Positions 20 to 59,341 of a stretch of DNA of 60,520 nucleotides are shown here, piece by piece. The notes under the pieces were generated by a model. It had not been told where the DNA came from. It saw nothing but the letters and a program-made list of their open reading frames with translations, and searched no databases. The stretch comes from a virus. Position 1 is the stretch's first letter, and each line of letters starts with the position of its first letter. The position numbers and the translations under genes were made by a program. The DNA lies in the IMG/VR virus record IMGVR_UViG_3300001683_000034, positions 1-60,520 of that record; one strand, given 5' to 3'.

Positions 20-508
20 CTAGACTTCCCCAATGATGCCTATTGTAGTAGACGCGCCAACCTCTGAAGGAAGGTTAGCTGGAATAGATTGTTTAATCCA
101 AAGACTAAATGAATTAGTGTCTGCCAGGGGATCTGGGATTGTAAGTGCAGTCGCATTTGCAAGTCCAATAGGTTCGACAAAGACTATAATACCAGGGTTA
201 GATGATGGGTCATCGGCTGTATCATTCCCAACACCAGCAGATATTTGAATCTGTCCAGGATGTTTAACATTATTTAAAAACACTTTTACGTTATTGATTG
301 GACTACCCGACGTGTTCCTTACCCAGATCTTTTGATATCTTACTCGAGCATCTTGTCCTATATAATCACTAACTCCTTCTGGAAAAACATCACTAAGTGT
401 AGCTCCTACTTCGTTGCCTAGGTCTATTGCGCCACCAACAGTATTCGTATCTGGAGGACTAGATATATTCCAATTTGCAGACTGGTAAAAAGTTACATCA
501 AGTGCCAT
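20..508 (-). CDS. baseplate/tail-associated structural protein, unidentified
   Basis: The protein has 162 residues, is rich in Ser, Thr, Asn, Gly and beta-branched residues, and has no signal peptide or membrane segment. This composition fits a beta-structured virion protein. The ATG at 508 overlaps the stop of the frame-shifted end of the baseplate J-like gene in a TAATG junction, so it is translationally coupled to baseplate genes. Its position immediately after gp25-like and J-like genes is where many myoviruses encode a tail-tip (gpI-type) or fibre-attachment protein. The sequence itself is not one I recognise. Confidence 0.6.
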   Translation of the reverse strand: MALDVTFYQSANWNISSPPDTNTVGGAIDLGNEVGATLSDVFPEGVSDYIGQDARVRYQKIWVRNTSGSPINNVKVFLNNVKHPGQIQISAGVGNDTADDPSSNPGIIVFVEPIGLANATALTIPDPLADTNSFSLWIKQSIPANLPSEVGASTTIGIIGEV

Positions 509-10834: not shown

Positions 10835-13800
10835 TTAAAATACCGAATTCATTCTACTATCGAGATGTTGAGAAATTTCTGTACGAGACATTGTATCATT
10901 CAAGTCAGATCTAAATGAACCTTGAATATTAGGTATATAGCCGTTATGTAGAGCATGCTGATTAGTCATACCCCTGAAATCTGGAGGGCTGCCCATCTTG
11001 CCTGATACATTCAATGAGCTTCTCGCTCCCTGAGACCTAGCTACACGGGCTATACTGGTATTAGGCATAGCATCTGCATGAAAAGTAGGATCATGTGGGG
11101 TAGACATCATTGGAGGTGGAGGCATCGCGTTAGCCGCACTATAGCCAGTAGCAGGCACATTACCTGGAGAGAACCTGTTCATAGCAGATCTGATCGCTTC
11201 GACTCCCGCCAATCCTCCAACTATGGCTGCAGCAGGCTTAAAGTATTTAGTTTGACTGATTTTGGCAAAGAACTCGCCGCTGATTAAAGCATTCCTATAG
11301 CTGCTATTAGGGACATGGGGGCTACTAACTCCACGAGTGTTGGCCATTGATCCAGCACGTTGGTCCTGTACATCAAGTAGCTTTCTACGTTGATTATCTT
11401 CTTGGAGCGAAAGCATGACATCCTGTATGCTACTACGTATAATCTGGTCTGAATCTCCCCCGCCAATAGCTTGGATGTCGGCCATAGCTACAGCACCAGG
11501 AGCTTCTGCGCCCATTATCCTATCCGTCATAAAACCCTGTCGTACTATACCCATATCTCTGAGTACTGACTCAAAGGGCATTCCAAGCGCCGTACTTTTA
11601 CCTTGACCAAAACCTACTTTTAGCTCTTCACTCATCATCTCTACGAATATCATTCTTTTTGCTAAAAGTTTTGCTTGCTGCTCAGCGTGATCTTTCGTGC
11701 CACCGGCTAGCTGATGTAGGATGCTTAAAGTTTGGGGCTCAGTTTCGCTAAGAGCCCTGAGTGTATTCTTGTCATCATTAATCATTTGTGCTGCTCTTAG
11801 TAGATTACTTGCAACATCATCTACTAGTTGACGAGATTTAGCTGTACCATCGCCAACTATTCCAAATAGCTGATCTGAAAACAGAGAACTTTCTGCAGCC
11901 ATACTCGCTCTTGCTTCCACCCCGGCTGCCTTTAAGCTATCTAGAATAACATCAGCTGGAGTCGCAATGCCGCCGTGTGCGACCTTCTTGAGATGCATAT
12001 ATTTTATTAGGTTCCTTGCATCTGTATAATGATATGTGGCAGAACGTCCGCCCCTAGATCCCGGAGACCCGCCCATGATTCCTGCAGCTTTGTCCAAGAA
12101 TCCTGATACTCTCTCAGCATTCGTATCGCCTAGTCTTGATATCAGGTTTTCTCTGAGTATACTCTTGCCCTCGCCACTAGCCTGTACGTCTAAGATCTGT
12201 CCAATCATATGATCTACATAAGACCTGCCTCTGAAATGGGCTTCTATAATAGGAGTAGAGTGTTTAGGCCCGACTATATCTATGAGGGATCTAAACGTTT
12301 CTCCCTTAACAGTACGGTCACGAAATTGATTTGTATCCTCCAGGTCTGATATTAATGAAGTAACGTCACCTATATCGTTGAATGTACCCTTTATCCTCTT
12401 TGCTACTTCTTCTGGCGAAGATTTTAATTTATTGAGAATACCTTCCATCATCTCTACTTGACCAGAGTGTATCCCCTCCATGGTCGAATCAGTCATGCTC
12501 TTTAATCTGAAGATAGATACACTGTCTTTGTCGAGGTCCCCTTCCATGCCATACTGAATCATTGCAGTATTCAAGAAAGCGACTCCGCTAAAGTTAAATC
12601 CTTCAGTTATAGACTTACTAGCAAGCTGAGTATCTTTTAGCAGCTTTACCTTGAGCGCAAGCATCTGGCGACCACCAGCAGCCGGCTCTCTCACAGCCGT
12701 TACATACAGCTTATTGTTTCTTGCCTGAGCAATCATTTTGTCTATATTGGAATATTTATCACCAAAAGCCATAGACCTTAAGGCTTCTTCGGTCACACCA
12801 ACTTCAAATTTGCCTACTTGCGCATGAGTTTGAAGTCTTAGCCTACCTCCTAATTTTAATCCTTTAGGATCTACAGTAGATGAGTAGAAGAGGCCTTGTT
12901 TAGATAGGGTGTTCCCGGCCATCACGCCATATAACTTGTCTAACCTCCCCTCTATCTTAGCAGTATCTGTAACAAGACGTTCGCCTTCTGCACTCTTTAG
13001 TCTTTCAACATCTTGCAATATATCTAGATACATTGACTGTGCTTCTTTGCCGGCGACCCTTCCTTCCTTCATGTTAGCAATAGCATCTATATGCAGCTTA
13101 TCGAAGTTACGATTCCCACCGGGAACTCTTAAGAAACCTGCTTCTTTTGTAAAGCCCATAGCCTTCGCAGAAGGAATAATCATTGGACCATGCTTACCCT
13201 TTACGAGTATGGCTTGATCGGATATTTTAACTACCCCTGTCTTGGGATCTCTTCTCCCAAGAATTGTGTCACCTATTGCTTCGAGAGATGCCTTACCATC
13301 TACGCTATGTTGTTTCTGTGAGAGTAGCTGTTCAATTGAGGTTTTCGCTTCTTTGAATTTTCCTACAGATAAAGTAGAATCTCGGCCAACTTCAATTCCT
13401 TTTGCTGCTCTTTTTAATACAGCTAATTTGCCTATTTTCTCATCGACAAGGGCCTTCTCTATTTTTGAGAACCCTGCAGCATCTTTTTTGAAATAATCAC
13501 GTTGCTGATACATAAGGCTAAGATCATGGTTCTTCTTGAATATACCAGGATGACTGTCGATAAGACTGTCAGCTAGATCTCTCTTCATGTCTAATATTCT
13601 GCGAACACCAAATTCTTTACCGCTGACATCTTTTCTTCCTCTGGCGAAATCTATTGATTCGCCCAACATAGAAATATCTCTTAGTTTTATATTAACCGCA
13701 TCACGACCAAGTTTGACGAGAGGTTCTTCTCCTCTGATGGCTAACTCAGCTGCTATGCTTTTGATCATCCATTGTTGATCACCAACAAGTGCTGGGAGCC

Positions 13801-16800
13801 CTGCAGCTGTTCTTCTTCCTACACCAAGGCGCCTCATAATCTCAGATGTTGATCCTCCTGAGTCTCTGGCGGCCGCTTCTATCGCTACCTGCTCTTGCTT
13901 AGTGGCAGCCTGGTATCCTGGAAGTTCAGCAAGTACTTTAGATAAACTGACTTTAGTAAAAGACTCATCGAGAAGTGCTTGTAGGCCTACTGTCTCTTTT
14001 GCTACAGATTTAAGGCGTGCCATAAAGTCTACATCTGACACGCGTTCAAATGCATCACCAAGACCAGCAAATTGAACAATAGACCTATCACCCACTTTTG
14101 CTATTGTAGCTTCACCACCCATCGCAGACGTAAGTTTTTGTACATTAGATCTGGACAGATCTCCGCCGGCTTCTTCACTAATTAACTGGCCGAGATTCCT
14201 AAGAAGAGTAACATTGAAACCGAATGACTGGCGTCCTTCCTTACCTGCCTCTAACACTCCTCTCGATCGTTCAAGACCGAGATCACCTAATACAAGTTCT
14301 AAGCCGCTACGGCTAGGATCGATCTTGGCTAAACCAAATATACGTTCCTTTGCACCTTTGCTTATTACTTGTCCGACACTTACTCTTTGGGAATCTAGTA
14401 TATACCCTCGATCAACCATGACACGAGCAGGATCTTTTCCGGCGATTCTTTCCGCCATCGTCAGTTCTAATTCCCCAGATCTTGCTATAAGTCTTACGCC
14501 TGTGATAAACGTTTTGCTAGGATCTAATCCACGCTTCTTGGCAATGTTAAGCATGTCATGTGTATGTCGTAAATCTTGCTTAAGGACTTCATCTGCATGT
14601 TTCGCAGATTCACCTAATATTACATGCCCTGTTACCGGTTCTACGTTAAATGCGGCTTCGGCATATGCAGCAGTCCTGCGTCTCTTTAGTCCCTCTTGAG
14701 CATAATGCTCTTTAAAGACTTCTAGCTGAATTTCCTGTCCTGGCTTAAATGTGATTCGTCTACTGCCGCGTTCCAGCATATCTTGGTGCGCTAGAATTGC
14801 ATTATGCAGATCGCTTCTAAGGAAGCCTTGAAAGTTTAATTGCCCAGCAGTAGTGCCGGTTCTAGCAGCGTCTAAGGACCTCAGATTTATTTTATGAGTA
14901 AGTGTGTGTCTAGATAATCCAGACAATGGATCAACATCCATTTGTCTGACAAGATCGCCAGACATGACTACGCCAGAATCTCCAAAGATAAGCCTATTTA
15001 GCTCTTTGTCAAGAAATTGTAGTCCTACAGTTTTTCTACCAAATGCGACATTAGTGTCTTTAAATGCCTTTCTTCCTGGGTCTAGACTAGAGACCTCCTG
15101 TCTTAATGCAGTATTCGCTGCTCCGCTATAACCCATAATCCTTGCTACGGTGGTAGGTAGGTCATCTACTGACCTTATCTGTACGGCGTCTCTGGATAGC
15201 TGAAATTGTTGACCTTTTATAAAGGGTGTTTGCCCCGGCAAAATTGATAAGTCTTTAACGCTCCCTATAGTCGCTTTCAGGTATACTCTCTGTTTTGCTC
15301 TATCCTTGTCTAAAATATTTGGTCGGAAAACTGATTCCCCACTTTGGGGACCCCAGGCAAAGTGGAGATTCTTAAACTTTTTAGCGAATATACTGTTAGG
15401 CTCTTCCAACTCCAGTCTCTCAAGATGCTTCATGACAGCATTTTGGCTCTCTACCATCTCTTTACGAAGCCGGTCTGCACCGAATACTTGGCCGCGGTTC
15501 CTTTCATCAAAACCCGTGTGCCATGCTTTTCTCGCATTATATTCATCTAATAACTTATTATATAATGTGCTATTCGCATCTACTTCCATCAATAGTTGCT
15601 GAGAAGATCCTAGAAGATGCCTACCTAATTTAGGCCTGCCGGCATAATTAACTGGATCAGCTAAACCAGAAGTATTTTTAACTCTTTCTTCCCACATTAA
15701 CGATTCATCGAATAACGAATCTTGAGCACCCAATACATTATTAATAGTCTCCCTAAGCTTGCCTTGACTAATATCGTGATGGTTCTCTAATGATTTGAGT
15801 ACCTCTCTGTATATAACTCGAGAAGCCGTCTCTGGCTCTGATAGTTTGCCTGTATCTCTTCCTATCTTACCTATAAGAGATGGGACACTGTATGCACTGC
15901 CGCCCTTAAACATATATTCAGCAGCATATTCTCCTCCTGTTGCTGCGGCAGATGGATTTATAGCAGTTGAGAATAGGGGAATAGAGACATTCTCTCTGCC
16001 TATCGATCCACCTGTAGCGATTAATTCATTACCTCTGAAAAATAGATTGGCCTTAGACTCTTCTATCCTTTTAAGGAGTGGCTCTAACCCGCCTGTAGCA
16101 AACCCCCTATTCTTTAAGAAATCTGTTGCAGATGCAGCTGTTGGGAGTTGCTCTGATCTAACCCTCAGTGTAGCACCTGTGTACATCCCTATGTGTGTAG
16201 GCCTAGACTCTATCTTCTCGACTAGCTTAAGTTCACGAGCAGTCAATTCTGTGGGCCTAAGAGAATTCTTCCATCCCTCTATCACTCCAAGATCAGATTT
16301 AGTACTTATCGCACGGCCGCCGCCTTTGCTACCGCCGAATACAATGTCCTCAAATGTTTCAGCCCCTGATGCAAATACTCTTGTCCTTGCAGATAGCTTC
16401 TCCTCATATTCACGTAAGGCAGGATTGAATGAGCTGCCCTTGAATACGGTCCTCTCAAATTTTTTCGCTCGAGATATCCAAGCTTCCTCAGTCACGTTGT
16501 TGCCTAGCAGATCTTTATGTTTATGGTATATATTCGCTTCGATTAATTGCCGTAACGCCAGTCTTGTATCTACTGGCCTAGCTTGTCCTTTTCTGCTGCC
16601 ACTTGTGTACTCACCTGGGTGTAACGTTTTACTTAGTCGCTTTTTCCAATAGTCACCCAAGTTTTCCGGCATTAGCTCTTCTAGATGAACTGTTCTACCG
16701 ACCTGTCCGGAAATTGGGCGCAATGGGGATGCGCCTTTGAATGGTTCCGCTAGTTGTAGCTTAAAATCGCTGCGACTTCCACTCTCAAGAGCGAGCTCCA

Positions 16801-17101
16801 CCCCTAGCACACTTCGCGCCTGCTTGGCCAGTTCACCACCGTATCTGTCCCTTCGCTTCGGTACGATCCGCTCACGGTGGAATTTTCTGGTGAGGAGGGC
16901 GTCCCTCTCAAGGGCTCGTATAGGTCGATACATCTTCTCTTGAACAAGACTTTTTCGCGCTGTCCTGTCAGCCTTACTTTTCTCCACTGCTTGGTCAAGT
17001 CGACTTTTGTGGCCTAAAAAGTCAGCTAGTTTAGATCTTCCACCCGTCTCCTTAAGTAACCTACGTAACTGATCAGAAACATTTTCATCTGGTCTTGCCA
17101 T
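10835..17101 (-). CDS. giant virion protein with DPBB RNA-polymerase-like DxDxD signature
   Basis: The protein has 2088 residues and starts at an ATG with GAGGAG upstream. Near the middle it has R-E-P-A at about residue 1471, a strand-rich 50-residue stretch, then MEGDLDKDSVSIF with D1522, D1524 and D1526. The order R-x-P, about 40-55 residues, then D-x-D-x-D followed by hydrophobic strands is that of the second double-psi beta-barrel of cellular RNAP beta-prime (DFDGD), QDE-1-like polymerases and the large crAss-like phage virion RNAPs. The last glycine of the cellular motif is lysine here. I could not place the first barrel with its catalytic lysines. A candidate is around ILVKGKHGPMIIP. 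The C-terminus has a hydrophobic segment (about 1950-1970) and a disordered, proline-rich tail. By context it is a virion protein. An RNAP role is an inference from the motif. Confidence 0.55.
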   Translation of the reverse strand: MARPDENVSDQLRRLLKETGGRSKLADFLGHKSRLDQAVEKSKADRTARKSLVQEKMYRPIRALERDALLTRKFHRERIVPKRRDRYGGELAKQARSVLGVELALESGSRSDFKLQLAEPFKGASPLRPISGQVGRTVHLEELMPENLGDYWKKRLSKTLHPGEYTSGSRKGQARPVDTRLALRQLIEANIYHKHKDLLGNNVTEEAWISRAKKFERTVFKGSSFNPALREYEEKLSARTRVFASGAETFEDIVFGGSKGGGRAISTKSDLGVIEGWKNSLRPTELTARELKLVEKIESRPTHIGMYTGATLRVRSEQLPTAASATDFLKNRGFATGGLEPLLKRIEESKANLFFRGNELIATGGSIGRENVSIPLFSTAINPSAAATGGEYAAEYMFKGGSAYSVPSLIGKIGRDTGKLSEPETASRVIYREVLKSLENHHDISQGKLRETINNVLGAQDSLFDESLMWEERVKNTSGLADPVNYAGRPKLGRHLLGSSQQLLMEVDANSTLYNKLLDEYNARKAWHTGFDERNRGQVFGADRLRKEMVESQNAVMKHLERLELEEPNSIFAKKFKNLHFAWGPQSGESVFRPNILDKDRAKQRVYLKATIGSVKDLSILPGQTPFIKGQQFQLSRDAVQIRSVDDLPTTVARIMGYSGAANTALRQEVSSLDPGRKAFKDTNVAFGRKTVGLQFLDKELNRLIFGDSGVVMSGDLVRQMDVDPLSGLSRHTLTHKINLRSLDAARTGTTAGQLNFQGFLRSDLHNAILAHQDMLERGSRRITFKPGQEIQLEVFKEHYAQEGLKRRRTAAYAEAAFNVEPVTGHVILGESAKHADEVLKQDLRHTHDMLNIAKKRGLDPSKTFITGVRLIARSGELELTMAERIAGKDPARVMVDRGYILDSQRVSVGQVISKGAKERIFGLAKIDPSRSGLELVLGDLGLERSRGVLEAGKEGRQSFGFNVTLLRNLGQLISEEAGGDLSRSNVQKLTSAMGGEATIAKVGDRSIVQFAGLGDAFERVSDVDFMARLKSVAKETVGLQALLDESFTKVSLSKVLAELPGYQAATKQEQVAIEAAARDSGGSTSEIMRRLGVGRRTAAGLPALVGDQQWMIKSIAAELAIRGEEPLVKLGRDAVNIKLRDISMLGESIDFARGRKDVSGKEFGVRRILDMKRDLADSLIDSHPGIFKKNHDLSLMYQQRDYFKKDAAGFSKIEKALVDEKIGKLAVLKRAAKGIEVGRDSTLSVGKFKEAKTSIEQLLSQKQHSVDGKASLEAIGDTILGRRDPKTGVVKISDQAILVKGKHGPMIIPSAKAMGFTKEAGFLRVPGGNRNFDKLHIDAIANMKEGRVAGKEAQSMYLDILQDVERLKSAEGERLVTDTAKIEGRLDKLYGVMAGNTLSKQGLFYSSTVDPKGLKLGGRLRLQTHAQVGKFEVGVTEEALRSMAFGDKYSNIDKMIAQARNNKLYVTAVREPAAGGRQMLALKVKLLKDTQLASKSITEGFNFSGVAFLNTAMIQYGMEGDLDKDSVSIFRLKSMTDSTMEGIHSGQVEMMEGILNKLKSSPEEVAKRIKGTFNDIGDVTSLISDLEDTNQFRDRTVKGETFRSLIDIVGPKHSTPIIEAHFRGRSYVDHMIGQILDVQASGEGKSILRENLISRLGDTNAERVSGFLDKAAGIMGGSPGSRGGRSATYHYTDARNLIKYMHLKKVAHGGIATPADVILDSLKAAGVEARASMAAESSLFSDQLFGIVGDGTAKSRQLVDDVASNLLRAAQMINDDKNTLRALSETEPQTLSILHQLAGGTKDHAEQQAKLLAKRMIFVEMMSEELKVGFGQGKSTALGMPFESVLRDMGIVRQGFMTDRIMGAEAPGAVAMADIQAIGGGDSDQIIRSSIQDVMLSLQEDNQRRKLLDVQDQRAGSMANTRGVSSPHVPNSSYRNALISGEFFAKISQTKYFKPAAAIVGGLAGVEAIRSAMNRFSPGNVPATGYSAANAMPPPPMMSTPHDPTFHADAMPNTSIARVARSQGARSSLNVSGKMGSPPDFRGMTNQHALHNGYIPNIQGSFRSDLNDTMSRTEISQHLDSRMNSVF

Positions 17102-23726: not shown

Positions 23727-24590
23727 CTAATGCTGTATGCCAAAAGAATAGTTATCCGTCCACCAGTCAGATCGAATACCTCCGGGCTGCCAGTTCTTAG
23801 CATAATTGGATCGATGTCCACGATTGGACAGAATATTGTCAGTAACGAGCTCACCTAGATCAGCACCAGCCTCACTGGCTAGTGCATGCATCTTCATTAC
23901 ATGGTTTCTGAGTATCTTCTTATCGCTTTCCCAGCTTGAGGCCGATAGCGGAAAATATTGCTCAGCTACGTATGTATAAGTAGACTCTGTATATATATCA
24001 TCTATAGAGAACGTGGTGCCGAAATTAGTCAGTGTGATGTTTGTAAGCAATGCGCTCGACATACCTCCAAGCTCGTTAGAGGCCTGAAGGACCATGCTGA
24101 ACTTTGGCATTTGGTCAACGAATAGCGTTGGTTCTTTCATTGGCTCTCCATCTGTATAAGATTTAGATAGCATATTAATAAATGCGTCTCTGAGGCCAGA
24201 CGTGAATACCATTGATCCAGCTATAGTCCTAGACCCACGAGCATAAGCGACCGGATTCGTTTCTCCTAATCGCCTCACTGGCATGACGCTTCTTGCAGAA
24301 GAAACCGTCAGGGTCTGTATTTTTTCCTCAATTTCTGAATACCCTGGATCAATTGTAGTTTCATTATAAACAGTTGGAATAGTTATTAAACATAATATAT
24401 CAGATCCAGCATAAGATATTGCTTGTCTCTGAACAACTGGATTTGTTCCCTTTGCGGCTATGTTAGATGCAGTTGCAGCTAATCGCTTTACGCGTAAAGC
24501 CTCATCCGCTTTAATCTTTATATCTTGAGAAATTGCATATCTTTTTATAAGAGCTTCAATGCCGTCTGGAAGGGGTGTACTTAAAGACAT
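23727..24590 (-). CDS. tail-tube-fold paralogue (second of three)
   Basis: The protein has 287 residues. It shares GETNPVAYARGSRTIAGSM and FSIDDIYTESTYTYVAEQ with the tail-tube protein encoded just upstream (ANPRSFSRGKRGIAGSL and MSIDDITTDESCTFVATE). The N-terminus carries an extra Lys/Ala-rich helix of about 50 residues. It is probably a second tube-like subunit. The ATG has no visible Shine-Dalgarno: the preceding bases are AT-rich and follow a strong hairpin, so its expression may be lower than that of the main tube protein. Confidence 0.6.
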   Translation of the reverse strand: MSLSTPLPDGIEALIKRYAISQDIKIKADEALRVKRLAATASNIAAKGTNPVVQRQAISYAGSDILCLITIPTVYNETTIDPGYSEIEEKIQTLTVSSARSVMPVRRLGETNPVAYARGSRTIAGSMVFTSGLRDAFINMLSKSYTDGEPMKEPTLFVDQMPKFSMVLQASNELGGMSSALLTNITLTNFGTTFSIDDIYTESTYTYVAEQYFPLSASSWESDKKILRNHVMKMHALASEAGADLGELVTDNILSNRGHRSNYAKNWQPGGIRSDWWTDNYSFGIQH

Positions 24591-24654: not shown

Positions 24655-25326
24655 TTAACCAGTAGGAGTCTTTGAATTATCGACTGCTTTATCGAACCTG
24701 AGATTTGCTTGTGCGAACCAAGGCTCGACCTCTGTTGCGACGAACGTGCAGCTTTCATCTGTAGTGATATCGTCGATAGACATTCCGCTACCTGCATTCA
24801 TTATCTCAACATTCTTAATCTGCATTCTGCACACATGTCCGTACTCGTTAGCAGCAGATATAGTAATGTTAAATGGTGGCAATTGGTCATGATATGTCGC
24901 GCCAACAGACTCTAAATCTAGGAAGTTTCTTAGGGCAACCACGTCATTGGGGTTATCTGCTGATTTGGTTCCTAATTCTGCATCCATTAAATTAGTTTTA
25001 CCTACACGATCCATAGCACCCATCTGCGACCTGGTTAACTCAGTCTTCTTCATTATGACCCTAGATTCACCAGTTGTATCTTGTCGAGAGATGTCTAGCA
25101 GGGCTGATCTATCAAAGACAAGAAAGATTAGTGATCCTGCGATCCCTCGTTTGCCCCTAGAGAAGGAGCGCGGGTTTGCGGATCCCATCGTATAAAGCGG
25201 CGCTTTCTCCCTTGTAACTGTGTAAGAGACTCCTTGAACCTCTCCTACTGTCACATTTCCGAACGTAACAATCATGTCAACACCGCTAAATGAGTTATAC
25301 GTTTGTGTTACTGCTGATCCTGGCAT
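24655..25326 (-). CDS. major tail tube protein
   Basis: The protein has 223 residues and follows the sheath gene with a TAATG overlap, the standard sheath-tube order of contractile phages. It is beta-rich, with VDMIVTFGNVTVGEVQGVSY at the N-terminus, PLYTMGSANP and RGKRGIAGSLIF in the middle, and MSIDDITTDESCTFVATEV near the end. This pattern fits a T4 gp19/gp54-like tube fold. Two paralogues follow it. A strong hairpin just downstream suggests high expression. Confidence 0.75.
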   Translation of the reverse strand: MPGSAVTQTYNSFSGVDMIVTFGNVTVGEVQGVSYTVTREKAPLYTMGSANPRSFSRGKRGIAGSLIFLVFDRSALLDISRQDTTGESRVIMKKTELTRSQMGAMDRVGKTNLMDAELGTKSADNPNDVVALRNFLDLESVGATYHDQLPPFNITISAANEYGHVCRMQIKNVEIMNAGSGMSIDDITTDESCTFVATEVEPWFAQANLRFDKAVDNSKTPTG

Positions 25327-51775: not shown

Positions 51776-54700
51776 CTATGTCGTTTGTCTCTGTCTGGAT
51801 CCGTTAGGATGACTGACGCGTGTTCTATATTTTAAAGCATCATTACCATGTAGCGCTGCGTGTTTTCCTTGAGATCTTATTTTAGACTTGCCCTTGAATT
51901 GCTGTGTATTAGTAAGGCTCGTGTGGTTTTCTTGCCTATACACACGTGGCTTTATATGTTTTCCATAATCACCTAGCCCCTTTACGGCAGAATAATCTGG
52001 TGGAGCCATCATTCCGGATGGTAACCCCATGCCCATCCCTACGGCGTTCTGCTGATATTTATCCTGAGTAGCCCTAGATCGGATGTCTTTCACTGACTGA
52101 TATACAGAGTAATTCTGTGTAACATGTCCCTGCCGTCGCAGATCAGACATCATGCCTCTTACGGCACTAACATCTTTTGTCAGTCTTTGTATATCTGTAT
52201 TAATCTTAAAATACTTTATTTTATTTGGATCATTTCTCGCGGCATATCCGATTAACGCGTATGGCTGCTTTAATGCATATGCATAAAAGTTGGCCTGAGA
52301 CACGTGTGCTTCTTTGGGGGATTTTAGGCGTTGCAGCGCCTCAATGTCTTCAACTGATTTTATTTCTAATGGAACACCAGATTTAAGCACCAAGTCTATG
52401 TGCCCCATGACATCCAACTCAGGACTATGTACAACATGCTCATGGGCTTGAGCTATGTCTTTCTTTAGATACTCTGATTCTATTATATTATGTATATTAG
52501 TACCCTTCTCAGATGAATTTGTATAGTCATCAAAAGAAGATCTACCTAGCAGTATATCTCTGAGCCGATCTCCTCTATATCCGAGCATAGAGGATCTAAT
52601 AGTGTTACTACCATATTGCGTACCATATTGTAAGCTAGTCATGGCCTGCGATGAGAAATGATCAACACCAGAACCGAAGGAGTGCAAGAGTGGATCGCCT
52701 GAAGGAGAAACACCACTTATCATATTATGTTTAGAGCCTGGATGTTTTATGGCGCCATTTCTATTGCCTATCAGTGTGAGTCCGGCAAGAGTTAACGCAG
52801 CAGTGGCAAAGACTCCACCTCTTCCTTTTAGCCCCCTAGGTCTTCCCTCTAGTGCTGGTCGACTACTCGTTGCTGCCTCGACTGCAGTATCTCCTGCATT
52901 GCTTATCGTTTGTGGTTCAGGTATAAATTCCCCTATTCTCTCTGAACCTATATTTTGTATCTCTTCAGCAATTATGTACCTATCTATTGCGTTATGTGCG
53001 CTTCTTGTCTTGGAGTGCTCAAGAAATTTCCCCATAAGTCGACCGGAGTGCCCCTCTTCTCCACGAGGATTTTTTAGATGCTCATTAAATACTCTTGTAT
53101 CCACATCCATCATTCTTTTAACGTCGACAGAAGCATCGTGGGCAGACCCCCTAGAGTCGAGCTGCTCTATCTCGAACCCCAGTGCATTTGTCTGATGATT
53201 ATGTGTTTCAGTATAGTTATCTTTTGCAAAGATAAGGCTCTCTGCTACTCCTCCTTGCGCACCAAGCGAATTCCCCATAACGGTGTCAAACCCAGTTGCC
53301 TCGCGAACTCCCATTTCTAGTGTCTCTCTGAGAAGCGAACCCTCTCGTGCAAAACTAAGTTTTCTGGATTGGTCAAATCCCATTATCCCGCCGGTGCCCT
53401 CAGTGTGTCTCCATAGTCTATCGAGCATATTTTCTAAGCCATGGAGATGTCTTAGAGGGTTAAGATGCCTTCTAAAAACTTCCATACTGCTAGCACCGGT
53501 AGCATGCTCAATCTCACCAACTTCTTTGATCATTTTTGCTGCGGTATTAACTATTAGTCCCTCATCCGACTGCCAATACTTAGCTACTCGCTCAGGTGAC
53601 ATATCTCCGCGACCACGGTTCATTCTTTGGAAGAATATCTCTGCTAGATTTCGATGCGTTGGCTTATTGCCCCCTGCTCCTCGATAACTAGCAACATCGT
53701 CAGCAATGGCTCTTATCTGAGTATTGCTTTTTACATAATGGCTTTTAGCTTCAGTTCTATTTTCGCTAAGCTCTTTTAGAACACGATCTGTAATCTGCTC
53801 TCTATTGAGTCCACCATGAGTCAATGATTCTTCTACATGCCTGTGGCTTATATTTTGAACATTATATTTCTCATCATTTACTAAGTTCCAAAACTGAATA
53901 TCTTTTACTTTATCTGCCGCATCAACAGTTCTTATAAGCATATCAGAATGAGTACCATTCGTTCCTACAAATAAAGTCTTAAATATTTCTTTCGCAGATA
54001 ATAATTTATCTTCTCCTCCAGAAAGATTACCGGGGAACAGAAGCTTTACGTTTTTACCATATGTGTCAACTTGGTCTGCCCACTTTGGTAAGTCATAATT
54101 AGTATTCCAGGTTACGATCTCAGCTGTTTTTCCCTGAGCTTTTGCCTCTGAAGCGAAACGCATCATCTTTGTCAGCGACTCTGAAACAAATTTCTCAGAT
54201 GTGATTAGATTCTCTCTACCATACTTAGCTTCAAATACACTTCTACCGAGTACAGTATTCAGAGTTGATCCTACAAGATTAACTCCGATACCAAAACTGC
54301 CTCCTGTAGGATTGGCTAATCTATTCGCTGTAATATTCTTTAATACAGATGGATTTCTTACTACGAACTTTCCTTGAGGTCCGTCTACTCCGCTCATCGC
54401 CTTTTTGGCTATTTCATCCTCAGGACTAAGATTATCGCTAGTCATAATTCGATCTATATCGATATGTTCTATACTCCCTTTCTTGTCTTTATACTCAAAG
54501 AGTAGCTCTGCTTCTTTTGGCGTTATTCCCTTAGGAATATCAAGCTCCATATGTTTATGAAACGCTTGACCGGTTCTTATCTCTTCTTCAGTTCCACCAT
54601 AAAACTGTGTAATCTGAACAGGCGCAGTCATTTTATGCGTAGGCATACCCCCATATCTAGATATGCCACCGCCCCTAGAAAGTTCAGTAACCTTCTTGCC

Positions 54701-56326
54701 TTTTACAATTTTATCTTTATGCTCAAGGCCTATATCAGTCGCTTCAACATCAAGATAAAATCTATGATTACCTGCCGATGAATTCCGTGGTACTGATCTT
54801 GTTGAGTCTGGTGGTAGCGGTAATTCCGGAAATGCAGGTGTAGATCGGTGGCCCCCGATTATGTCTATTCCTGCCCCACCTATTCTCTGCTCACTTAATC
54901 CCAGCTGCCTTTTCCCTGAACTATTTACTGTAGTATGAGGTCTTCCTTCTGTATAATCCCCTACTACTTGATTAGCTGCCTGAGATTTTTGTCGACTACC
55001 AACAGTCACTGTATTTCTATTTTTAAGTTCTTTCATTTGCTCTTGAGTAGCCCGTGTTCCTCCAAGCTCTCTCTCGATTAGACGAGAGTCCCAAGAGGAA
55101 TTTGATTCGGATTTTTTTATACGAGCAACTGTTCCAAGCTTTTCCTTTCCAGTAAGATTTATATCTACTGATCCCTTTGAACGAATCGGCTTGAAATTTT
55201 TATACGCGTCGTCAATGATTCCTACGACATTGCCAGGCACCGCATCTAGTTTCCTCCCACCTGTGGCGCCACCCATTATCAGTTCTGAGAATAAATCGCC
55301 CTGTCCTTTGCCTACTGTAAGTCGATGCTCTTTAAGATTATCTGTAGTTACTTTCTCAAGAGCAATGTCTCTATCAGTCCATAATTTTAGATCATATCCT
55401 GCATCACGCAATACTTGTAACTTTTTAGTCAGCGGCTCATTTACTTTAAGCTTACTGTATTTAGGGTCAGATTGCATTTTCTCTAGATATTTTTCTGGAT
55501 CCTTTCGATAAAGCTTATCTCCAGTATCATCGAAAAGAGTGCTATCTATATCTACCAATATAGTGCCACGACTGCGGGGAGGTGGATTTATCGTGTCTGC
55601 TACTGTGCCACGCTGAGTCGAGGTTGATGCAGGTGTCTTGGGTCTCGCTTTCCCCTGCTTCACTCGTTCCAGCGTTTCCTTTTCGGTCTTGATACTCTCT
55701 ATGTATTTTTTAGACTCTTGTGCAGTTTCAGCCCGCTCGAACATTAGTTCTTCTGGAGCTATATTAGCTTCATGTCTCATCTGGGCATGAAACCGTTTCT
55801 TTTGGACTTTCTTATCTTTTGCGGAGGTAGTCTTATCGTAATGCTCGCCGGGCTCGAAGAGAGTCAATTTTGGTTTGCTTTTTCCCTCAAGTTCAAGCCG
55901 CACCTGCTTCTGCCACTTCTCCGTCTTTTTTCTCTCGGCTAGATGTTCTAGGGCTGCATCCGAATGTGGTAGCAGCCGTTCTCGTGCTGCTTCTTCTGGG
56001 GATAAAGATAGTCGTCTTCGGTACTCTGCTTCTCGCCTTGCAGTTGCAGCTTGTCGTGCTTCCAGCTGCTGCTGCTGCAGCTCGGGCCCCCTCAGCTCTT
56101 TCGCTGCAGCCTGTCTCGCTGGCTCCTGTTTTACTGCAGCTCGCTCGGCTATAACTTTCTCCACTGCTGCCTTAGGTTTTATTCCCGCCGCTTCATCTGC
56201 AAGGCGCAGCATCTCTGCTTTAGTTATCTCGCCGGCATCTTTTCTTGCACGAAGTTCGTGAGATATAGACCTTGTTCCAGGTATTATATCTCCCGGTTTC
56301 CATGGTGGTAATTCCGGAATTGGCAT
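51776..56326 (-). CDS. three-enzyme fusion: HAD phosphatase, DEDD exonuclease, RecB-like nuclease
   Basis: The protein has 1516 residues, and its ATG overlaps the stop of the gene before it. Residues 1-230 are Ala/Glu/Arg/Gln-rich helix. Residues 253-390 have HAD motifs in order: LVDIDST (D259, D261), LKLWTDR (T317), K359 and GIIDDA (D372, D373). Residues about 520-900 have a DEDD-type exonuclease start, FYLDVEATD (D526, E528), and a WNTNYD second motif; the third is less certain. Residues 1250-1400 have a PD-(D/E)XK nuclease of the RecB/Cas4 type: GTNIH (H1279), GHIDLVL (D1311), LEIK (E1321, K1323) and SQANFYAY (Q1344). A hydrophobic, Gly-rich region lies before this last domain and the tail is basic with an A-A-L-H element. 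Position suggests a virion protein. Confidence 0.65.
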   Translation of the reverse strand: MPIPELPPWKPGDIIPGTRSISHELRARKDAGEITKAEMLRLADEAAGIKPKAAVEKVIAERAAVKQEPARQAAAKELRGPELQQQQLEARQAATARREAEYRRRLSLSPEEAARERLLPHSDAALEHLAERKKTEKWQKQVRLELEGKSKPKLTLFEPGEHYDKTTSAKDKKVQKKRFHAQMRHEANIAPEELMFERAETAQESKKYIESIKTEKETLERVKQGKARPKTPASTSTQRGTVADTINPPPRSRGTILVDIDSTLFDDTGDKLYRKDPEKYLEKMQSDPKYSKLKVNEPLTKKLQVLRDAGYDLKLWTDRDIALEKVTTDNLKEHRLTVGKGQGDLFSELIMGGATGGRKLDAVPGNVVGIIDDAYKNFKPIRSKGSVDINLTGKEKLGTVARIKKSESNSSWDSRLIERELGGTRATQEQMKELKNRNTVTVGSRQKSQAANQVVGDYTEGRPHTTVNSSGKRQLGLSEQRIGGAGIDIIGGHRSTPAFPELPLPPDSTRSVPRNSSAGNHRFYLDVEATDIGLEHKDKIVKGKKVTELSRGGGISRYGGMPTHKMTAPVQITQFYGGTEEEIRTGQAFHKHMELDIPKGITPKEAELLFEYKDKKGSIEHIDIDRIMTSDNLSPEDEIAKKAMSGVDGPQGKFVVRNPSVLKNITANRLANPTGGSFGIGVNLVGSTLNTVLGRSVFEAKYGRENLITSEKFVSESLTKMMRFASEAKAQGKTAEIVTWNTNYDLPKWADQVDTYGKNVKLLFPGNLSGGEDKLLSAKEIFKTLFVGTNGTHSDMLIRTVDAADKVKDIQFWNLVNDEKYNVQNISHRHVEESLTHGGLNREQITDRVLKELSENRTEAKSHYVKSNTQIRAIADDVASYRGAGGNKPTHRNLAEIFFQRMNRGRGDMSPERVAKYWQSDEGLIVNTAAKMIKEVGEIEHATGASSMEVFRRHLNPLRHLHGLENMLDRLWRHTEGTGGIMGFDQSRKLSFAREGSLLRETLEMGVREATGFDTVMGNSLGAQGGVAESLIFAKDNYTETHNHQTNALGFEIEQLDSRGSAHDASVDVKRMMDVDTRVFNEHLKNPRGEEGHSGRLMGKFLEHSKTRSAHNAIDRYIIAEEIQNIGSERIGEFIPEPQTISNAGDTAVEAATSSRPALEGRPRGLKGRGGVFATAALTLAGLTLIGNRNGAIKHPGSKHNMISGVSPSGDPLLHSFGSGVDHFSSQAMTSLQYGTQYGSNTIRSSMLGYRGDRLRDILLGRSSFDDYTNSSEKGTNIHNIIESEYLKKDIAQAHEHVVHSPELDVMGHIDLVLKSGVPLEIKSVEDIEALQRLKSPKEAHVSQANFYAYALKQPYALIGYAARNDPNKIKYFKINTDIQRLTKDVSAVRGMMSDLRRQGHVTQNYSVYQSVKDIRSRATQDKYQQNAVGMGMGLPSGMMAPPDYSAVKGLGDYGKHIKPRVYRQENHTSLTNTQQFKGKSKIRSQGKHAALHGNDALKYRTRVSHPNGSRQRQTT

Positions 56327-57367: not shown

Positions 57368-59341
57368 CTATGTTAGCTCGCACCGGTCTCCGGTGCATGC
57401 CCATGTCTTGGCGCCCTCGGTAGTATCTTCAGTTTCGTACATACTGAGATAACGATAATCTATCTCTGGTAAGTTTGCAAGCATTTTATTATATTCTTCT
57501 TCAGTGCACTCTTCGTATGGCGCTTGCTCATACTTACCACCATCATATGGTAAGAATGATACACCATTTATTATGTCCCAGTTTTTATATACCCAATTGC
57601 CTACTTCGAACCACTCATTATCTTTTACATAAACAGTGCAAGACGCATTATGCTCACACCAGTTCTCTTGTATCTTCTTGTATTGCTCCAGCTGCTCCAT
57701 GGCAGTCATGTCTCCTCGTAGGACAGAACCATCAGGAGATTTTACAGGGAAGGATACAACCCAGGTGATAACATCGTCTGCAGACCAGCTTTTTCCTTCC
57801 TTATATATAGCGCATGCTTCTGCGTCACCACCCTCAGCTCTCGCCCAGTCTTCTTTCCTTTGACCAGTTTCAGGAGACATGGGGACCTTTTGATCCTGTA
57901 GCATCCTGAATAATGGGTCAGTAGCAGATATACGATATCTGCGTCTATAGTAGCTTGCATACCTCGTGTGAATACCAGAAGAAGAGTCGACTAATTGGGA
58001 TACGGTTCCGGAAGGTTTTACACAAGTTATAGCAGCAGGCATACTCACGCCCAGTAGTTCAGACGCATGTTTGGCTATTTTAATTGCTTTCCTTTTCATT
58101 GCGCGCAGCGCGTCGGCGCTTAATAGTGTTTTGTTATCCATGATGCCTGTCAACGAGACTCCAAGAAGTCGTTCCTCCTCACAGTTCTCTTTCCACTTAT
58201 CGTTTAAATACGGGAAATCGGTGAAGCAGGACTGTATCACACCTATCCATACGGCGGTCTCTACCTTTTTAAACAGGGTATCCAGGTCATCCTCGGCTCG
58301 TACCACGACCTCGGACAGATTACAGAACTCCTGGTGGCGTAAGCTTATCTCTGCACACGGGTTAGTCCCTGAAATCAAGTAGCCTTGTCTGCGTTTTGGA
58401 GATCTTGTCCTAACAGATTGAACATTAAATATACCCCGTTCCCCCGTCCCAGAGGATGCCAATGTACTCCACTCCTTGAGGAAGTCAGTAGCACTGGGCT
58501 TCTCTAGATACACAGCACTGTTATTAGCCATTGCACGTCTCAGTGGAAAGGGCCACACCTTAGCACTAGCCATTTCTTTGTCAGATAAGTCAGATAAACT
58601 AATTTGACTCGATCTCCGTACACCTCCCACAACAACAATCTCTGCTATCTGGTTCAGTATGTCATGACACTCCAGAGAGGTCAGTTTACGCCCCTGCGCA
58701 TTTTGGAATACCTCACGCATGAATGCATGAAGCTGTACGAGGGGTTCGGGTCCAGAGGACCTACCACCCATTGTATAGAGACGAGATCCTTTAGGTCTTA
58801 TGTTTGTATAGTCCATGTCGACGTCGTGTCCTTCATAGAGGGAGTCGACGAGAAGTTTAACGGATTTAGTCCATCCGCCGCGAGAGTCCTTAATTGTATG
58901 TTGTTTTGTATATGCACCGTCGCGGAAGGTGCCTACCACTGGGAGCTTTTCTATATGTTTAGATTCAACAGAGAAGCCATACCCTGTACCACACATTAGT
59001 ATGTATAGTGCTTCTGAGAAGGCTATTGGGTCATCAATGACCTGGAAGGAGCAGTTATACATGCAGGTATTGTCTTTTTCCGCCGCGGGGCCTGCAGCCC
59101 AGAGCGATCTCATCGATGGCATCACCTCGAACCCCAGTATAGATGAATGAATCTTTTCGTAAGTCTTAAGCGGAACCCTGTCCCCCATGTGTTTACGTAT
59201 GAAATTTACGTACCTGTCTGTGGTCTCACTCCATGTTTCCCTACGGTTTTCCTCGTCTCTCCACCTCGAGTATGTACGCATATATACGAATTCCGCCGCG
59301 TCGTTCGAGAAGCCTGTGTCTAGTCCATCCTGAGTAAGCAT
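57368..59341 (-). CDS. nrdJ: adenosylcobalamin-dependent (class II) ribonucleoside-triphosphate reductase
   Basis: The protein has 657 residues. It has the class II monomeric marks: NCSFQV (C97), TNPCAEI with C329 as the thiyl-radical residue and E331, EFCNLSEVV (C340), and a C-terminal redox pair CTGDRC (C649, C654). The VKPSGTVSQL and R-x-x-x-x-x-x-x-R stretch in the barrel also fits. The enzyme makes deoxynucleotides from ribonucleotides with B12, without oxygen or a second subunit. The Lactobacillus enzyme is longer, about 740 residues. It supplies DNA precursors during infection. It is set apart from the virion operon by a terminator and has a promoter candidate upstream. Confidence 0.9.
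   Translation of the reverse strand: MLTQDGLDTGFSNDAAEFVYMRTYSRWRDEENRRETWSETTDRYVNFIRKHMGDRVPLKTYEKIHSSILGFEVMPSMRSLWAAGPAAEKDNTCMYNCSFQVIDDPIAFSEALYILMCGTGYGFSVESKHIEKLPVVGTFRDGAYTKQHTIKDSRGGWTKSVKLLVDSLYEGHDVDMDYTNIRPKGSRLYTMGGRSSGPEPLVQLHAFMREVFQNAQGRKLTSLECHDILNQIAEIVVVGGVRRSSQISLSDLSDKEMASAKVWPFPLRRAMANNSAVYLEKPSATDFLKEWSTLASSGTGERGIFNVQSVRTRSPKRRQGYLISGTNPCAEISLRHQEFCNLSEVVVRAEDDLDTLFKKVETAVWIGVIQSCFTDFPYLNDKWKENCEEERLLGVSLTGIMDNKTLLSADALRAMKRKAIKIAKHASELLGVSMPAAITCVKPSGTVSQLVDSSSGIHTRYASYYRRRYRISATDPLFRMLQDQKVPMSPETGQRKEDWARAEGGDAEACAIYKEGKSWSADDVITWVVSFPVKSPDGSVLRGDMTAMEQLEQYKKIQENWCEHNASCTVYVKDNEWFEVGNWVYKNWDIINGVSFLPYDGGKYEQAPYEECTEEEYNKMLANLPEIDYRYLSMYETEDTTEGAKTWACTGDRCELT

Follow-up and report, generated by a model that had tools for sequence, protein, structure and literature searches.

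The protein encoded at 10835..17101 on the minus strand of the DNA studied here (hereafter called P0001; 2088 residues) is probably a giant single-chain, two-barrel virion DNA-dependent RNA polymerase (RNAP) that is built into the tail of a contractile-tail phage, ejected from it, and transcribes the first phage genes. On the best reading, it belongs to the lineage of 0305phi8-36/ME3-like myoviruses. The argument is built on a putative catalytic motif that recurs, at the same gene position, in phages whose proteins have otherwise diverged very far.

Results

The sequence studied (the window) is a complete IMG/VR virus record of 60,520 bases, which is probably a piece of a larger genome. P0001 is an open reading frame beginning with ATG. 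Its start and the stop of the upstream gene are one base apart, as are its stop and the start of the downstream gene. The upstream neighbour, P0003 (17103..21770, minus strand), encodes a conserved tail protein of 1555 residues. The downstream neighbour, P0002 (3307..10833, minus strand), encodes a giant baseplate hub of 2508 residues, a sub-stretch of which matches phrog_20474 and a baseplate protein of phage KLEB27-3. These neighbours bear out the initial annotation, which had placed P0001 among tail genes, next to the hub and the gene at the tape-measure position. The record also holds genes for a tail sheath, tube-like proteins, a baseplate J-like wedge protein, an MCP, a portal and a terminase. 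With sheath, MCP, portal, terminase and wedge genes all present, the phage has a contractile tail, as had been claimed.

P0001 carries REPA at residues 1471–1474 (12680..12691, minus strand) and GDLDKD at residues 1521–1526 (12524..12541, minus strand). The arrangement first reported for this protein, REPA about 51 residues before GDLDKDSV, was verified in the sequence: GDLDKDSV begins at G1521, and R1471 and D1522 are 51 residues apart. DLDKD is the sole DxDxD in the protein, and D1522, D1524 and D1526 form a candidate Mg-binding triad. Together with K1401, the two motifs would lie in a beta-prime-type catalytic double-psi barrel at about residues 1395–1535 (12497..12919, minus strand). K1401, R1471-x-P and DxDxD show no variation across six aligned proteins that occupy this gene position (hereafter, the slot).

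The bare motif is weak evidence because shuffled P0001 sequences contain DxDxD in 32% of cases, and R.P 30–55 residues ahead of D.D.D in 2.3%. More complete versions are rarer: R.P..G ahead of GD.D.D arose in 0.025% of shuffles, and REPA ahead of GD.D.D in 0 of 20,000. The weight of the motif comes from its conservation: it does not vary among orthologues, and it turns up again in very divergent proteins that occupy the corresponding gene position. Among 129 open reading frames of at least 800 residues, the pattern R.P..G-27..52-D.D.D occurs in six slot proteins, phi14:2 gp66 and P23-45 gp96, and in no others.

Two viral contigs encode orthologues of P0001 (L004 and L005), with 45% and 52% identity over the whole protein. 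VREPAAGGRQM and EGDLDKD are identical in all three proteins and are among their most conserved stretches. With the hub and P0001 as queries, no orthologues beyond these two came out of the viral and species-genome contigs searched. The hub as query also led to Bacillus phage KLEB27-3, Moorella phage MTATph1 and Acinetobacter phage ME3. A scan of 2.9 million viral contigs with the DNA pattern EPAxG-N(105-135)-GDxDxD, whose hits were then checked for reading frame, recovered the known members and added two giant proteins, L085 and L193. Their genes, on environmental contigs, are flanked by a gene of ~1220–1280 residues and by a hub or hub-like gene. Both were detected through the motif, so that their agreement in motif is not independent; their position in the slot is. 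The remaining long-frame matches to the pattern were repetitive proteins without the arginine, or a low-complexity and probably antisense frame.

The order conserved tail protein, giant protein, baseplate hub is found in five mutually very divergent phages besides the window type. Seven of the eight slot proteins, all but that of MTATph1, have R-x-P and then a single DxDxD, at a spacing of 40–51 residues. The paired motifs are REPAAG and GDLDKD in the window type (P0001, L004 and L005), REPAQG and GDHDQD in ME3 gp036, REPAQG and GDGDQD in L085, REPAQG and GDFDYD in L193, and RYPTIN and ADYDGD in KLEB27-3 gp034. In the alignment of these seven proteins R-x-P and DxDxD are invariant, and members are 15–22% identical to KLEB27-3.

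The genes on either side establish that the slot is the same in each group. The upstream gene is one family in the window, ME3-like and KLEB-like groups (hhalign E 1e-31 to 8e-42; reversed-profile controls, E above 0.06), and the hub is likewise common to the three groups (4e-15 and 4e-18; weaker for window versus ME3-like, 1.7e-4). Homologous genes thus lie on either side of the slot in the window, ME3 and KLEB27-3 groups, and so the slot itself is homologous. Full-length hhalign comparisons of the slot proteins between groups were not significant. In the ME3 record gp036, annotated as hypothetical, is flanked by gp035 and gp037, homologues of 0305phi8-36 YP_001429636 and of the hub YP_001429638. 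ME3 gp036 and 0305phi8-36 orf146 have the same flanking genes as P0001. A homologue in phage c-st has been named (PMC7824862).

KLEB27-3 (vB_BauM_KLEB27-3) gp034 shares with P0001 the slot between P0003-like genes and the hub, and is annotated in its record as 'structural protein'. It differs in length (2434 residues) and in having a canonical DxDGD, within NRYPT..ADYDGD, and its overall similarity to P0001 is undetectable. Its N-terminal region is related to an exonuclease-bearing protein of MTATph1. In MTATph1 the slot gene is interrupted: an IS21-type transposase gene and an IstB-like gene lie between an N-terminal piece, CDS0027, which has an RNase_T exonuclease match, and a C-terminal piece, CDS0031. 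No frame of the MTATph1 slot contains DxDxD.

A further shared feature lies near the C-terminus. P0001 has a hydrophobic, glycine-rich stretch at residues 1953–1974 (11180..11245, minus strand), ~115–135 residues before its end, in the same position as predicted transmembrane (TM)-like helices in ME3, L085, L193 and KLEB27-3. In the ME3-type and KLEB27-3 proteins the helix is about 100–125 residues from the C-terminus. The P0001 stretch is less hydrophobic than theirs and scores under the TM threshold used.

One link to known polymerases comes through KLEB27-3. Residues 1877–1944 of gp034 match the catalytic end of Pfam RNA_pol_Rpb1_2 (PF00623, the RNAP beta-prime catalytic domain), with E falling from 0.015 (whole protein) through 7e-4 (fragment) to 7e-5 (six-frame search); the score of 20.2 bits is under the curated cut-off of 25.3 bits. 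In the six-frame search of the 216 kb of KLEB27-3, gp034 was the single PF00623 match. The top PDB match of the gp034 fragment is the AR9 beta-prime chain (E 0.31), in an alignment that includes NR-P and DYDGD. A match of the slot profile to AR9 beta-prime depends on KLEB27-3, because a profile of the six slot proteins without it found no RNAP in the PDB.

Other profile searches were negative. Window-only and ME3-only profiles, searched in six frames under default HMMER filters, gave no matches, and phi14:2 gp66 and P23-45 gp96 as single-sequence queries failed to pick up the slot proteins at their catalytic site. None of the eight records contained a match to PF05183 (RdRP/QDE-1-like). A search with PF00940 was uninformative, as controls gave no match either.

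We also ran a scan free of filters, in which 140-residue window profiles taken along the window-type and ME3-type proteins were compared with 4266 open reading frames. Counting matches outside their own group, the two types enter each other's top three in no windows but those that span REPA..DxDxD, and do so collinearly. L193 ranks 1–2 with window-type profiles, and ME3-type profiles place P0001 first (best independent E 0.019). Moreover, with ME3-type profiles the catalytic site of phi14:2 gp66 ranks 2–3 of the 4266 frames (E about 5). The individual values are weak; in our reading of these comparisons it is their consistent place and direction that constitute the evidence. In the same scan, windows from KLEB27-3 failed to find the other groups at the catalytic site; the link to KLEB27-3 is thus one of synteny and motif, not of sequence score. 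Past the triad (first Asp as position 1), position 7 is hydrophobic and position 9 is V, I or T, in slot proteins and known enzymes alike. The proposal that this region is the active site of a two-barrel RNAP stands in part: motif conservation, the PF00623 match of KLEB27-3 and the ranking of gp66 favour it, but P0001 itself has no significant RNAP match in Pfam, PHROGs, NCBIfam or the PDB.

AlphaFold models made with six sequences reached pLDDT 36 for P0001 residues 770–1950 and 34 for residues 1370–1610, both too low to be usable. A tentative motif for the first (beta-type) barrel may lie at residues 706–740, FGDSGVVMSGDLVRQMDVDPLSGLSRHTLTHKINL (14882..14986, minus strand). Its core is retained in P0001 orthologues, and its counterparts read DG-x-G in ME3, L085 and L193 and DG-x-F in KLEB27-3 gp034. 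QDE-1-like enzymes have DG-x-G-x-I-S, and the RNAP beta subunit has E-D-A-I-L-I-S. The P0001 stretch (FGDSGVVMSGDLVRQ) appears to resemble both motifs, and we offer it as a candidate first barrel and as a lead only.

Discussion

Could P0001 be merely a tail tape-measure protein, with an incidental DxDxD? 0305phi8-36 orf146, at the equivalent gene position, was assigned as the tape measure from tail length (PMC2147016); ME3 gp036 occupies that same slot, and P0001 has both the giant size and the gene position before the hub expected of a tape measure. However, a tape measure has no need of an invariant R-E-P-A..G-D-x-D-x-D, and the P0003 family is just as good a tape-measure candidate. We therefore regard this explanation as unlikely. 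Nor need it exclude a polymerase, because P23-45 combines tape measure and virion RNAP in one protein (PMC10770324).

We consider it improbable that P0001 is a structural or ejected non-polymerase whose DxDxD is a calcium- or metal-binding loop, EF-hand-like or related. Chance readily produces DxDxD, as the shuffles show, and the ME3-group profile weakly matches an EF-hand dynein light chain (E 0.68). Yet P0001 (DLDKDSVSIFRL) and the rest of the slot proteins lack both the G expected at position 6 of an EF-hand loop and the E expected at position 12, on which grounds we rejected an EF-hand/calcium loop identity. Moreover, slot proteins resemble RNAPs, gp66 and gp96 among them, in two respects: an invariant R-x-P, here 40–51 residues ahead of the triad, and a hydrophobic strand pattern following its third Asp.

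The initial annotation had also raised an objection of its own, namely that lysine replaces the final glycine of the motif. In the window and ME3 groups the DxDGD glycine is indeed replaced by K, Q or Y. The objection is answered by phi14:2 gp66, an active enzyme that has DFDID: a non-glycine fourth residue is compatible with activity. A relic of a two-barrel RNAP, perhaps folded but catalytically dead and kept for a structural or DNA-ejection role, is a shade less probable again than a metal-binding loop, for although the replaced glycine would suit it and MTATph1, which keeps the flanking parts of the slot around an IS21-type element with no DxDxD, suggests that the domain is dispensable, a dead enzyme would not need the three metal-binding aspartates that all slot proteins but that of MTATph1 retain, and gp66 works without the glycine.

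For a polymerase of this kind, the nearest precedent had been sought in podovirus-type crAss-like phages. This holds for gp66 of Cellulophaga phage phi14:2, a crAss-like virion RNAP (PDB 6VR4): it too is a giant single chain (2180 residues), its RIPNQG, followed 39 residues on by SDFDID, is comparable to the REPAQG of ME3-group slot proteins, and its gene adjoins virion-protein genes, as slot genes do. By contrast with the slot phages, phi14:2 belongs to the podovirus-type Crassvirales, and gp66 neighbours gp65 and gp67 rather than a hub. There is no overall homology between slot proteins and gp66; alignment is limited to the DxDxD region and is below significance. Precedents are not confined to podoviruses, however, and include the siphovirus P23-45 (PMC10770324) and the myoviruses phiKZ and AR9, whose virion RNAPs are multisubunit.

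In the Thermus siphovirus P23-45, the virion RNAP gp96 resides inside the tail tape-measure protein, is ejected with the DNA and transcribes the first genes (PMC10770324). Like P0001 it is a giant tail-region protein, in which RNPVMG (R741) precedes VDFDGD (D779) at a spacing of 38; the fragment crystallised, 327–1124, indicates a large core around the motif. Unlike P0001, it has its RNAP at the N-terminus of a 5002-residue protein, whereas the P0001 motif sits 73% of the way along the protein and has K rather than G as its fourth residue. The two proteins have no significant sequence similarity. phiKZ and AR9 package a two-barrel virion RNAP in a contractile-tail phage, as we propose for P0001, but their enzymes are split into beta and beta-prime parts and reside in the head. 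The known RdRP-like RNAP of 0305phi8-36, orf99, is encoded by a separate gene elsewhere in the genome. If the RNAP reading holds, the slot family works like P23-45 gp96 or gp66; its membership in the sequence family of either is not supported by our comparisons.

As a virion polymerase, P0001 would be expressed late, together with the tail genes, and assembled into the tail between the tail protein and the hub. The location in the tail operon fits an ejected enzyme, and from it we infer presence in the virion. P0001 would then be ejected along with the genome, as P23-45 gp96 is (PMC10770324), and would transcribe the first phage genes before or alongside the host RNAP. In the beta-prime-type barrel D1522, D1524 and D1526 would hold Mg2+, with R1471 near the substrate, and the beta-type barrel, several hundred residues upstream, would supply lysines. 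The TM-like helix, or the weaker hydrophobic stretch of P0001, might serve to hold the enzyme at the entry pore.

We give an even chance to the broader proposal that the slot across 0305phi8-36/ME3-like myoviruses encodes a family of ejected single-chain two-barrel RNAPs whose metal site, DxD(K/Q/Y)D, is non-canonical. A literature search for an RNAP in this slot found no paper; most subscription journals were outside that search, and novelty is provisional.

Together with their DNA, phages with this slot probably deliver a transcription enzyme of their own into the host. If so, the enzyme for first transcription travels in the tails of an orphan lineage of large phages with contractile tails, and what has long passed for a tape-measure gene encodes, at least in part, a polymerase. 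Tail-borne single-chain RNAPs would extend to myoviruses, as a third type beside crAss gp66 and P23-45 gp96. The tree of two-barrel polymerases would gain a very divergent branch, and with it another case in which the DxDGD glycine is replaceable. KLEB27-3, whose recorded host is Bacillus australimaris, may allow the RNAP reading to be tested directly.

Nature has interrupted this gene in Moorella phage MTATph1 (L008). An IS21-type transposase/IstB pair sits inside its counterpart between the conserved tail protein and baseplate hub genes (L008 10513–17869), and N- and C-terminal parts of the gene are retained on either side. The DxDxD motif, the candidate metal-binding triad, is absent from all frames at this locus. 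Judged by sequence, the candidate polymerase part is naturally lost or disrupted here.

The N-terminal piece, CDS0027, has an RNase_T match. Its exonuclease-bearing stretch resembles residues 68–262 of gp034, the corresponding protein of Bacillus phage KLEB27-3 (L002 8130–15434; tblastn E 2e-3). This resemblance suggests that one tail protein, gp034, would carry both exonuclease and polymerase-like regions.

Adjoining the sheath in the window, two neighbouring proteins (23727–24590 and 24655–25326, both minus strand) match one PHROG labelled major head protein. They are probably tail-tube paralogues, and the label is probably wrong for them. Past the structural genes lies a B12-dependent-type ribonucleotide reductase gene (57368–59341, minus strand; phrog_367, E 2e-155).

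A 1516-aa protein (51776–56326, minus strand) includes a Cas4-like PD-(D/E)XK nuclease stretch (residues 1271–1360; NCBIfam cas4, E 1.4e-5). By eye, HAD-like DIDSTLF and DnaQ-like exonuclease motifs are also visible. Perhaps this is another ejected protein with multiple predicted enzymes.
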